Shown here in pieces: positions 5,557-48,893 of a stretch of DNA of 64,000 nucleotides. Both the position numbers and the translations under genes were made by a program. Every line of letters starts with the position of its first letter. The stretch's first letter is position 1. The notes under the pieces were generated by a model. The model ran no database searches. It had not been told where the DNA came from and saw nothing but the letters and a program-made list of their open reading frames with translations. Source of the stretch: a bacterium HR28 (GTDB taxonomy: Bacteria > Chloroflexota > Chloroflexia > Thermomicrobiales > Thermomicrobiaceae); contig BEIE01000003.1 of assembly GCA_002898255.1 (NCBI GenBank), forward strand, positions 186,001 through 250,000, written 5' to 3'.

Positions 5557-5703
5557 CGGGGTCCTCCTGCCGCGCGTCGCCGATGTGGGCATCGGCATCG
5601 CCAGGAGCAGAGGCTCCGCGTGCAGGACCGGCAGGCGTCACGGTTCGGTTGGTGAAGTGAAGGAGAGGTGAGATCAGACGGGGTGATACTTGCGCTCATC
5701 ACT

Positions 5704-5805
5704 ACGGCCTTCCCTCCGCTGGCATTACCCAGGTCAGGTTCCACGGTCGGTGGCAGACGTTTCGGCCACCCTCTCAGCCCGGCTTCCCCGAGCTCCCGCG
5801 GCCGT
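5704..5805 (-). promoter_or_regulatory. TPP (THI element) riboswitch
   Basis: Minus strand reads ACGGCC...CTCGGGGAAGCCGGGCTGAGAGGG...GAACCTGACCTGGGTAATGCCAGCGGAGGGAAGGCCGT; conserved CUGAGA and ACCUGA..GGGUAAUGCCAGCG..GGGAA; P1 ACGGCC/GGCCGT is perfect. Confidence 0.95.
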
Positions 5806-6155
5806 CTCCTCTTTTCTGTGACGGGACGGTAGCAGAAGGGGTGAGCGTTGTCAAGCGAAGAACGCGGGCTTGAGGCCTCGGCCGTCTTCGGTGCCGGCGA
5901 AGGGCACTGCGCAACTCGAGATGTCCCTTCCCATAGAGGGCCATGGCGAGCGTTCCGCAACGTGGCAGTTGCGCTCGGCATTGAGACGCCATGCCTACTC
6001 TCAAGCGGTGGTTGGTGGCAAACCGTCGGTCCCCTCACGTGATCGGGCGATGGCGATGTGGTGTCGCTGTCCCCTGTTGCCGTCGACGCGGGAACACCTC
6101 TGTTCCCGTGCCGCGCTCAAAGTGGGGACAGGAGATTCACTGAGGAGGTGCGGCG

Positions 6156-20170: not shown

Positions 20171-20200
20171 GGGGGCCGACAAGAGAGCTTGTCGGCCCCC
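20171..20200 (-). terminator. Intrinsic terminator downstream of the cupredoxin-like gene
   Basis: gggggccgacaag-agag-cttgtcggccccc, 13-bp perfect stem, TTTT shortly after on the minus strand. Confidence 0.75.
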
Positions 20201-44448: not shown

Positions 44449-44478
44449 ACGGCCCAGGGTACTCGTTCCCTGGGCCGT
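44449..44478 (-). terminator. Hairpin between rpsO and pnp
   Basis: acggcccaggg-tactcgtt-ccctgggccgt, 11-bp stem. Confidence 0.6.
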
Positions 44479-44930: not shown

Positions 44931-44964
44931 AAGAGCGCTCCGGGAAAATCCCCGGAGCGCTCTT
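44931..44964 (-). terminator. Terminator after ilvC
   Basis: aagagcgctccggg-aaaatc-cccggagcgctctt, 14-bp perfect stem. Confidence 0.75.
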
Positions 44965-44978
44965 GAACCCCTCCTGCG

Positions 44979-45986
44979 TCAGGATGGGATCTGGCGTTGC
45001 TTGAGCCAGGGCATCATGGCGCGGAGACGCTCGCCGACCTCCTCAATCGGATGCTGGAGGTGTTCCTGGCGGAGTCGGTAGAAGTTCGGCCGGCCGGCCT
45101 CATTTTCCGCGATCCACTGTTGTGCGAAACGACCTGTCTGGATGTCCTGAAGGATCTGGTGCATGGTTTCCCGGACGTGGTCGTCGATAATCTTCGGACC
45201 ACTCACGTAGTCGCCGTACTCGGCGGTATCACTCACGGAGTAGCGCATGAACTTGAGACCGCCTTCGTAGATCAGGTCGACGATCAGCTTGAGTTCGTTC
45301 AGCACTTCGAAATAGGCGATCTCAGGCTGATAACCGGCCTCGACCAGCGTCTCGAAACCGGCCTGGATGAGATGGCTCACACCCCCGCAGAGCACGGCTT
45401 GTTCGCCAAAGAGGTCGGTCTCGGTTTCCTCCTTGAATGTTGTCTCAATCACCCCAGCCTTCGTGCAGCCGAGTCCCTTGGCGTAGGCCAACGCGATCTG
45501 TTTGGCTTGGCCACTCGCGTCCTGATGCACCGCCAAGAGTGCCGGGACACCGATCCCCTGGACGTAGAGATCACGCAAGATGTGCCCTGGACTCTTGGGC
45601 GCTACCATGGCTACGTCGATATCAGCCGGGGGCACGATGCGCCCATAGTGGATGTTGAAGCCGTGGGCGAACATGAGGAGCTTACCTGGCCGGAGCTCAG
45701 GAGCTACGCTCTCCTCGTACACGCCTTTCTGGACGTGGTCAGGCATGAGCATGGAGATGATGTCCGCGCGGGCTGCTGCTTCACGCGGTGTCAAGACTTC
45801 AAAGCCGTCGGCTTGGGCTCGTTCCCGGCTGCGGCTGCCCTCGTGTAGACCCACAACGACCTGCACACCGCTATCACGAAGGTTCTGGGCATGGGCATGC
45901 CCCTGGCTCCCGTAGCCGAGAATCGCCACCGTTTTGCCGGCCAGGAACTGCAGATCGGCATCTTTATCGTAATAGATCGTCGCCAT
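44979..45986 (-). CDS. ilvC: Ketol-acid reductoisomerase
   Basis: [36 protein letters not shown]. Confidence 0.98.
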
Positions 45987-46031: not shown

Positions 46032-46559
46032 TCATGCTACAACGGGCTGCGGAACCGTCGCAACTACTCGCGTACCGCGTGCCATCGCAATGACGCCGGA
46101 GCGTGCCAGTTCCTTGATTCCGTAGGAGCGGACCATCGTGATCAAGGAATCGATCTTGTCTGGCGGCCCCGTCACCTCGATGATGAGCGAATCTGGGGTT
46201 GCATCGACGATGCGTGCCTGATAGACATCGGTGACCAACCGCATGATGTCACTACGATTCCGATCAGTTGCGGTCACCTTGATGAGCGCAAGCTCCCGCT
46301 GGATGAGGTTCTCGTCAGTCACATCCGTGATCTTGATGACCTCAAGAATTTTGTACAACTGCTTGACAAGTTGTTCGATCTTCCGATCGTCACCCTGCGC
46401 GACGAGTGTGATGCGCGAGAGCCCGGGTGTTTCCGAATGACCAACCGCGATCGAATCGATGTTAAAACCGCGCTGGCGGAAGAGACTGACGATCCGATTC
46501 ATCACTCCTGGCTTGTCTTCGACCAGCACGACGAGTGTATGACTTCGCACGCTCACCAT
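46032..46559 (-). CDS. ilvN: Acetolactate synthase small subunit
   Basis: ACT domain LVVLVEDKPGVMNRIVSLFRQRGFNIDSIAVGHSETPGLSRITLV. Confidence 0.97.
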   Translation of the reverse strand: MVSVRSHTLVVLVEDKPGVMNRIVSLFRQRGFNIDSIAVGHSETPGLSRITLVAQGDDRKIEQLVKQLYKILEVIKITDVTDENLIQRELALIKVTATDRNRSDIMRLVTDVYQARIVDATPDSLIIEVTGPPDKIDSLITMVRSYGIKELARSGVIAMARGTRVVATVPQPVVA

Positions 46560-48289
46560 TCCCCCTCAACCTGGTACTCGTCAATCATGTCCCGGAACGT
46601 TCCACCGGACGGGATCATCGGGAACACGTTCTCTTCCTGATTCACAACGAACTCGATGAGTGCGGGTCCGCGGAAAGAACGGGCCCACAGGATGGCCTCG
46701 TCGACCTCGCCCGGACGTGTGACCCGCCGTGCTGCCATCCGGTAGGCCTGACCCAGCAGGACATAGTCCGGGCTCGAGATCGGCGTCTCCGAATAGTTTC
46801 GGTTGTGGAAGAGCTGCTGCCACTGCCGGACCATGCCGAGGTAGCCATTGTTGATGATCGCCACTTTGACGTTGAGTTGTTCGTCGACGATCGTCGCGAA
46901 CTCGTTCAAGGTCATTTGCACACCACCGTCGCCGACGACCGCCCACACCTCGGCCTCGGGGCGCCCGATCGCAGCTCCCATCGCGGAGGGGACGCCGAAG
47001 CCCATGGCACCCAGGCCGCCGGAACTGATCCACTGCTTCGGGATGTCGCACTTGTACAGCTGGGCCGTCCACATTTGATGCTGGCCCACATCGGTCGTGA
47101 CGATCGCTTTCCCCTCCGTGAGCGCGTGGAGCCGCGCGATGACGTACTGCGGCTGGAGGATGCCATTCGGTCCGGATGGCTCGGTGCGGATTGGCCGGTA
47201 CCAGCTTCGGATCAGGCTCAGCCAGTCGTCATGCTCCAGCGGTTCAAGTTCTTCGAGCAGGAGGCGCAGCGCTTCGCGTGCATCGCCGACAACCGGCACT
47301 TCTGTCTTGAGCACCTTGCCGATCTCTGCCGGATCGATGTCGATGTGGATGATCTTCGCATTGGGCGCGAACTCGCTCGGTCGGCCTGTCACTCGATCGT
47401 CGAAGCGCATCCCGATCCCAATGATCAGGTCTGCCTCGTGGATGGCGCGATTTGCGTGGGCATGCCCATGCATTCCGACCATTCCGAGGCACAGCGGGTG
47501 AGAAGCTGGAAAGCCACTAATGCCCAGGAGCGTCAGGCCGACCGGAATTTGCGTGCGTTCGGCAAAGCGCACGAGCTCCTCTGTCGCTCCGCTTATGAGG
47601 ATGCCGTGACCAGCCAAGATGAGGGGACGCTTGGCTTGGCGAATAAGTTCGGCCGCGCGTCGGATTTGCCGTCGGTGCGGCACGATAGTGGGGCGATAGC
47701 CAGGGAGATGAAGTTCCTGGCGTGGGGCAAGGTAACCCTTAGCGAGCTGGACGTCTTTGGGGATGTCGATGAGTACAGGTCCCGGGCGACCAGAGCGAGC
47801 AAGGTAGAAAGCCTTCTGAATTGCAGGGCCGATCTCCTCCACGCTGCGGATCACCATGTTGTATTTGGTGATCGGCAATGTGATACCGGTGATGTCAGTT
47901 TCCTGGAAGGCGTCCATTCCAATCACGCTTTGCGGGACCTGGCCGGTAATGGCGACGATGGGGATCGAGTCCATCATGGCATTGGCGATCCCCGTGACCA
48001 GATTGGTCGCCCCAGGGCCAGAGGTGGCCATGCAAACTCCCACCTTACCGGTCGCACGCGCATAACCGTCCGCGGCGAACGCAGCGGACTGCTCGTGTCG
48101 AACCAGGACGTGGTGGATCGGATAGTGCGGTAACGCGTCATACACTGGGAGAATTGCACCGCCGGGATAGCCAAAAATGACCTCCACCCCTTCACGCACC
48201 AGGGCCTGTAAAACGAGGTGCGCTCCCAGCTGTGGTTCGCGCTGCGGTTCCTCACTGACTTGCTGTCGCTCACGTGTCTCAATTGCCAT
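46553..48289 (-). CDS. ilvB: Acetolactate synthase large subunit
   Basis: GYPGGAILPVYDAL, HEQSAAFAADGYARATGKVGVCMATSGPGATNLVTGIA, TPP site VGDGGVQMTLNE. Confidence 0.98.
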   Translation of the reverse strand: MAIETRERQQVSEEPQREPQLGAHLVLQALVREGVEVIFGYPGGAILPVYDALPHYPIHHVLVRHEQSAAFAADGYARATGKVGVCMATSGPGATNLVTGIANAMMDSIPIVAITGQVPQSVIGMDAFQETDITGITLPITKYNMVIRSVEEIGPAIQKAFYLARSGRPGPVLIDIPKDVQLAKGYLAPRQELHLPGYRPTIVPHRRQIRRAAELIRQAKRPLILAGHGILISGATEELVRFAERTQIPVGLTLLGISGFPASHPLCLGMVGMHGHAHANRAIHEADLIIGIGMRFDDRVTGRPSEFAPNAKIIHIDIDPAEIGKVLKTEVPVVGDAREALRLLLEELEPLEHDDWLSLIRSWYRPIRTEPSGPNGILQPQYVIARLHALTEGKAIVTTDVGQHQMWTAQLYKCDIPKQWISSGGLGAMGFGVPSAMGAAIGRPEAEVWAVVGDGGVQMTLNEFATIVDEQLNVKVAIINNGYLGMVRQWQQLFHNRNYSETPISSPDYVLLGQAYRMAARRVTRPGEVDEAILWARSFRGPALIEFVVNQEENVFPMIPSGGTFRDMIDEYQVEGEW

Positions 48290-48322
48290 TCCGCCTGACC
48301 TCCCTTCATGACCCCTGGATAT

Positions 48323-48354
48323 ATCGCGAGCCTCCCGCTGGGGAGGCTCGCGAT
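48323..48354 (-). promoter_or_regulatory. ilvB leader hairpin (attenuator-like)
   Basis: atcgcgagcctccc-cagc-gggaggctcgcgat, 14-bp perfect stem between the leader ORF and ilvB. Confidence 0.75.
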
Positions 48355-48392
48355 GCGCTTCGTCTTTGTTCAGTGTCTTGGTCCGCGCTCGC

Positions 48393-48545
48393 TCAGCCTC
48401 CCGCCAGCGGCAGGCCCGTAAGGATGAGAATTACTACTACGAGGCTGAGGAAGCACGTCCAGGCTGAGGTGGCGGGCACACCCTCAGAACCAGCTAGTCG
48501 CTGGTCGCTTTCTCTCAAACCTTGTGGCCGCCGCCTCGTTTCCAT
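48393..48545 (-). CDS. Branched-chain amino acid leader peptide upstream of ilvB (50 aa)
   Basis: Hand translation: METRRRPQGLRESDQRLAGSEGVPATSAWTCFLSLVVVILILTGLPLAGG*; eight consecutive L/V/I codons CTC GTA GTA GTA ATT CTC ATC CTT. Start uncertain (in-frame GTG at 48479). Confidence 0.75.
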   Translation of the reverse strand: METRRRPQGLRESDQRLAGSEGVPATSAWTCFLSLVVVILILTGLPLAGG

Positions 48546-48893
48546 GGAACTCCACCCGGGACTGCTCTTTGTCCCTATCGCAGCCTACCAGAGGAGTCGC
48601 CTCGTGTCAAGCGTTGAGTGGGCTGAAAGATGAACAAGACATGGATTTCCCCAACAACCGGCAGAGACAACAAGTGCGTTCCGGGGGAGCGAGGATCACG
48701 GGAACCTCCTCGGTTACCGTTGAGCGAACTGTCTCTGATAAAGGATAAATGGTGAGCTGAAACTGTCCGCTTGTGCGCTGGACTTGCGTTCAGATGCACG
48801 GAGTCTTAGCATTCAGTGCTATGAAAAGGCACTTTCTCGCCGCTCTGATGCGGCGGATTGGCGCCAGACCACACTGGTGTCACCCCAAAGCGG

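Follow-up and report, generated by a model that had tools for sequence, protein, structure and literature searches.

The leaders of the Escherichia coli ilvGMEDA and ilvBN operons carry Ile, Val and Leu codons, mutually exclusive 2:3 and 3:4 pairings and a terminator with a U-tract. Branched-chain leaders have been described in Actinobacteria, Corynebacterium and Firmicutes (PMC1262725, PMC10272879, PMC5794164, PMC5864092), and no report of such attenuation in Chloroflexota was found among the open-access papers searched. The ilvBNC attenuator of Corynebacterium glutamicum, or ilvB-II motif (PMC11857589, PMC10272879), precedes the same operon as the leader described here, and its own leader peptide, MTIIRLVVVTARRLP, also contains LVVV; GUA and CUU have been named as its control codons (PMC11857589). 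It comprises a terminator, an antiterminator and an anti-antiterminator, the same three elements that we propose here. The C. glutamicum leader has 15 codons and begins 1 nt from the transcription start, whereas the present one has 50 codons and begins about 30 nt downstream.

The locus lies on the minus strand of the window, by which we mean the whole 64-kb stretch of DNA analysed. The genome carrying it measures 3.12 Mb, and the closest named relative of its ilvB is that of an uncultured Thermomicrobium (98%), of the phylum Chloroflexota. The operon, read along the minus strand as are all features below, is composed of ilvB (acetolactate synthase large subunit, 46553–48289), ilvN (acetolactate synthase small subunit, 46032–46559) and ilvC (ketol-acid reductoisomerase, 44979–45986), the latter two assigned from their translations and operon position. 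The leader region is upstream of ilvB, and a long perfect hairpin detected by the perfect-stem scan 15 nt past ilvC (44931–44964) is the probable operon end.

A sequence-only reading of this DNA had described an ORF at 48545–48393 containing the run LVVVILIL, with a perfect 14-bp hairpin (48354–48323) between it and ilvB. The ORF proved exact to the base in sequence and coordinates, and the hairpin is as described, with a 4-nt loop. The leader ORF (48393–48545), identified by its translation and its conservation, has 50 codons followed by UGA and encodes METRRRPQGLRESDQRLAGSEGVPATSAWTCFLSLVVVILILTGLPLAGG, in which the control codons CTC GTA GTA GTA ATT CTC ATC CTT (L V V V I L I L) occupy 48420–48443. 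Segment 1, CCUCAGCCUC (about 48441–48450), is located just before the Val codons and is defined by the predicted fold as the partner of segment 2 on ribosome-free RNA. Segment 2, CGGGAGGCUGAGCGAG (48388–48403), includes the leader stop codon within its span. Segment 3, AUCGCGAGCCUCCC (48341–48354), is the 5′ arm of the hairpin, and segment 4, GGGAGGCUCGCGAU (48323–48336), is the 3′ arm of this terminator-like structure and is followed by AUAUCC. The cores of segments 2 and 3, GGGAGGCT at 48402–48395 and AGCCTCCC at 48348–48341, are positioned where the same reading had put them; both segments are defined by pairing and covariation. The 2:3 pairing is extended by a second helix, GCGA/UCGC, joining 48391–48388 to 48353–48350, and the ilvB Shine–Dalgarno region, AAGGGAGGTC, lies at 48297–48306. 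Features that had gone unmentioned are this extension of 2:3, segment 1, the tail ATATCC with no U-tract, the leader Shine–Dalgarno and the promoter (48610–48582).

The promoter (48582–48610) consists of a −35 element TTGACA (48610–48605), a 17-nt spacer and a −10 element TAGGCT (48587–48582), and its conservation places the transcription start, by estimate, near 48575. A strict sigma-70 scan reported no promoter at the window leader, owing to the −10 being TAGGCT; the comparative scan recovered it as TTGACA-17-TAGGCT. The Shine–Dalgarno-like sequence of the leader ORF, GGGTGGAG, lies at 48550–48557. In the genus alignment, conservation covers the promoter, the position of the start codon and the final third of the leader and leaves out the peptide’s N-terminal half, with a GGAGG-like site and an ATG or GTG start at the same place. 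Most of the genus has the promoter element at −218 to −220 relative to the leader stop. In the class, a TTGACA-type promoter precedes the leader in most leader-bearing loci, so that the leader is expected to lie within the transcript. A transcription start downstream of the leader ORF had been named in advance as grounds for rejecting the attenuation reading; the conserved promoter is upstream of the ORF, not downstream.

We consider it very probable that these elements bring about ribosome-mediated transcription attenuation of ilvBNC, as the sequence-only reading had suggested, a view with good support in sequence comparisons, the match of codons to pathway and the predicted fold. The conserved promoter would start transcription about 30 nt before the 50-codon leader ORF. 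With charged Val-, Leu- and Ile-tRNA in ample supply, the ribosome would reach the UGA and cover segment 2, and the 3:4 hairpin would end transcription. Were these tRNAs scarce, the ribosome would wait at L35–I39, covering segment 1; segments 2 and 3 would then pair, 3:4 would be barred and the polymerase would continue into ilvBNC. On a leader with no ribosome, 1:2 and 3:4 would form and the operon would stay off. Termination at 3:4, stalling of the ribosome and the response to starvation are what we infer from sequence. A similar-looking ilvB leader in Streptomyces coelicolor is unresponsive to mutation of its codons (PMC1262725), which counts against the attenuation reading.

A strong hairpin stands after an ILV-rich leader in 18/18 same-family loci examined. 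Class-wide, the criterion being an ORF in which 7 or more of 9 residues are I, L or V, together with a hairpin, leader and hairpin were present upstream of ilvB in 50 of 85 regions, compared with 0/85 reverse strands and 1/425 dinucleotide shuffles; the occurrence of an ILV-rich ORF with a hairpin upstream of ilvB is not due to chance. In family f12 and in some members of f11, f13 and f14, ilvD heads the operon and the leader then precedes ilvD, and several seeming absences of the leader are explained by this rearrangement, with ilvD before ilvB. The attenuator had been ascribed to ‘this lineage’; that scope was too narrow, as the system recurs across Chloroflexota.

Branched-chain leaders of other make-up precede ilvD or ilvB in other Chloroflexota classes (L281–L283, L286, L288 and L290) and in Ktedonobacteria (L095 and L198), and a T-run follows most of them. 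In f11–f13, a small ORF of about 32–50 residues lies between the attenuator and ilvB or ilvD (L082, L084, L090, L176–L178 and L188). It has a helix-like start, a proline/valine stretch (for example, RPVPVLVPVPVPVPV) and an Arg-rich end, and from its sequence may possibly be a conserved microprotein.

Pairing of the two alternative structures was assessed in the family alignment. For 2:3, 94.1% of cells are paired, a share that drops to no more than 51% on sliding; for 3:4 the share is 85.3% and does not exceed 49% on sliding. At columns 72/140/149, a three-way compensatory change from G-C-G to C-G-C is seen in genus g4. Column 128, a C in segment 3, is paired in 2:3 in 17/17 rows and in 3:4 in 5/17, and the 2:3 structure is therefore constrained in its own right. 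The shared core also shifts in step between families, reading GGGAGGGGC/GCCCCTCCC/GGGAGGGGC in f12 and GCGGAAGGC/CCCTTCCGC/GCGGAAGGG in f14. The 2:3 duplexes of individual loci are stronger than swapped ones, with a p value that is indicative only, given that the rows are related; f7 shows no such advantage, and f11 and f13 show a slight one. The energy of the 1:2 duplex is no better than in shuffles in most loci (p 0.14 for the window). In relatives, where the sequence-only reading had proposed to look, the codon run is conserved and so are the mutually exclusive stems, with covariation that includes the three-way change.

The same covariation bears on whether the region is instead a T-box, a ppGpp riboswitch or another ligand-binding leader, or has a protein operator at the palindrome. 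The palindrome is perfect, and T-boxes do precede ilvB or ilvD in families f6, f8 and f18, but an operator would not require the palindrome to covary with a segment in the ORF, and no Rfam family reaches its gathering score over 48280–48800. At gathering and permissive thresholds alike, nothing credible was returned over this interval, the T-box (RF00230) included, from an Rfam library that may not include the ilvB-OMG and ilvB-II models. We regard this group of explanations as highly improbable. The operator in particular was rejected, since covariation ties the palindrome to a third segment, one that lies in the ORF. Elsewhere in the window, a TPP riboswitch (RF00059, 56.8 bits) is found at 5693–5809 on the minus strand.

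Codon choice near the leader ends is strongly skewed. GTA accounts for 70% of Val codons there in g1 (21/30), 69% in f1, 72% in f2 and 70% in f11, against 7.2% (16/221) in ordinary genes, as counted in six window genes. ATT is raised at leader ends too; ATA, TTA and CTA are not. The impression that GTA and ATT are uncommon in this DNA holds for the same six genes, where ATT makes up 17% of Ile codons. Within one genome the identity of the codons tracks the pathway, with Val, Leu and Ile at ilvB, Ile at the citramalate synthase gene and Leu at leuA. The shared preference for GTA offers a handle on why attenuators pick particular isoacceptor codons.

These observations also address the proposal that the ORF product is a functional small membrane protein, with the run as a transmembrane helix and the hairpin unrelated. 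The C-terminal half of the product is hydrophobic, as this proposal expects, but its N-terminal half is unconserved even within the genus, the choice of codons is still conserved where peptides differ, equivalent ORFs are Ile-rich before citramalate synthase and Leu-rich before leuA, and segment 2 covaries with segment 3, which lies outside the ORF. The membrane-protein proposal was rejected as having next to no likelihood.

The attenuation reading was also examined through stall maps, in which the ribosome was taken to cover 12 nt past the A-site codon and the free 3′ RNA was folded at equilibrium. Without a ribosome, the window RNA has a predicted P(3:4) of 0.83, and segment 2 pairs upstream with P 0.81. 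With the A site at codons 26–28, 3:4 is predicted (P 0.9–1.0); at codons 29–39, which include L35–I39, 2:3 has P about 0.93 and P(3:4) is about 0; at codon 40, the two structures share the ensemble half each; and from codon 41 to the stop, 3:4 is predicted again, with P near 1 at the stop. The predicted antitermination zone would thus end on L-V-V-V-I of the control run. The maps are clean for the window and for most same-genus loci. No antitermination zone is seen in 39/75 class loci, which counts against the attenuation reading and keeps the maps from serving as proof for attenuators in general; the choice between 2:3 and 3:4 there would therefore need to be kinetic, as the choice between structures is in classical attenuators.

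Hairpin 3:4 of the window has no U-tract, its tail being ATATCC, whereas a U-tract is present in C. glutamicum ilvBNC. The missing tract is the chief weak point of the attenuation reading. It lends some weight to a different output, in which the same leader and stems are at work and hairpin 3:4 takes effect by Rho-dependent termination, by mRNA decay or on ilvB translation, as does the distance of only about 17 nt between the hairpin and the ilvB Shine–Dalgarno region. Against such an output, the proposed ilvB Shine–Dalgarno is outside hairpin 3:4, the homologous hairpins in families f2, f11 and f12 carry canonical T-tracts, and weak tracts are general here, including that of the leuA T-box terminator in the window’s genome, after which there is only GTTTGG. 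We consider the non-intrinsic output unlikely and keep termination at the hairpin itself as the proposed output. Across 75 loci, a weaker tract goes with a stronger stem, and a long T-tract is retained after the citramalate-synthase hairpin in one same-family genus. In the window’s genus, no U-tract follows the leader-type hairpins. Within the 64-kb window, U-tract terminators do not exceed the level in shuffles, and perfect stems of at least 10 bp are enriched (6 distinct, 11 entries, versus 0.5 expected). From these sequences, long hairpins with poor tracts appear to serve as transcription terminators in the window genus, which may give Thermomicrobium an unusual style of terminator. Long perfect hairpins of the window, mostly without U-tracts, include, besides the one past ilvC, those at 44449–44478, 20171–20200 and 2661–2688.

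Related leaders precede other genes of the window’s genome. Its citramalate synthase (TIGR00977, 684.6 bits versus a cut-off of 450) belongs to a set of same-family genes in which a leader with clustered Ile control codons (for example, AIIIGIIRPRVAG) and a hairpin was found in 11/11 cases (L226 and L269–L278). Its ilvD has no leader. Upstream of its leuA (L225, G000:C1, upstream of 374091), a T-box (1066–1292; RF00230, 103.3 bits) with specifier CUC and its own terminator is followed by an ORF that contains Leu codons and then by a second hairpin, CCUCCC, with relatives at L240–L254; the T-box core is present in 21/21 leuA regions of f1 and f3. A sister genus has a clearly Leu-rich second leuA leader, LDLLGLFLLSLLRP, with a matching segment 2. 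In the window genus Leu codons are few in this second leader and its segment 2 is imperfect, which makes the instance weaker.

A similar order occurs at ilvB in family f8, where in 5/5 genomes (L057, L058, L059, L067 and L195) a T-box (106–147 bits, with a CUC specifier in the four aligned) precedes a branched-chain leader and a second hairpin. Promoters were seen before the T-boxes at leuA and f8 ilvB, and none was found between the T-box and leader modules at the loci examined. On balance, we favour the view that some Chloroflexota branched-chain operons carry, in one transcript, a Leu T-box (CUC) with a terminator and then a ribosome-sensing leader attenuator with a second terminator. Such a serial array could provide a two-input or steepened response, or could mark an intermediate step where lineages exchange T-box and leader-peptide control. 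Exchanges of this kind have been noted before (PMC2965389), and in a tree of ilvB, f8 groups with Ktedonobacteria and f6 elsewhere. An earlier T-box survey recorded Chloroflexi T-boxes only at the ile-tRNA ligase and trp genes of Dehalococcoides (PMC2494555). With these arrays, sensor exchange becomes directly testable, loci that have both modules being candidate intermediates.

Compared with known systems, the proposed mechanism is classical ribosome-mediated attenuation, a type of switch already known. The window shares leader codons and exclusive pairings with E. coli ilvGMEDA and ilvBN, likened here by architecture and not by sequence, and of the two only E. coli has the U-tract. Listeria Rli60 and the Staphylococcus aureus ilvD leader (PMC5864092, PMC5794164) are ribosome-mediated attenuators at the head of branched-chain operons with experimental support; they stand before ilvD, are also under CodY and belong to a different phylum from the window. 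The ilvB-OMG and Leptospira ilvB motifs (PMC10272879) have leader ORFs with branched-chain codons before ilvB, as in the window, which has no Rfam match to them in a library that may not include those models. Ribosome-mediated attenuation is best known from Proteobacteria, Actinobacteria and Firmicutes; the present locus would add the little-studied Chloroflexota, and attenuation there would imply that in these thermophiles translation follows transcription closely enough to steer RNA folding. For a T-box followed by a leader peptide, the one precedent known to us is rtpA of Bacillus subtilis. There, the T-box and the leader peptide reportedly sense the same amino acid, and the peptide is said to control translation initiation. 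The order of modules is that seen here at leuA, where the second module looks instead like a transcription attenuator. The rtpA (anti-TRAP) leader, with its T-box and leader peptide, is credited to Chen and Yanofsky 2003, as cited in PMC11255114. The serial array of T-box and leader is a candidate new variant and the most novel part of these findings.
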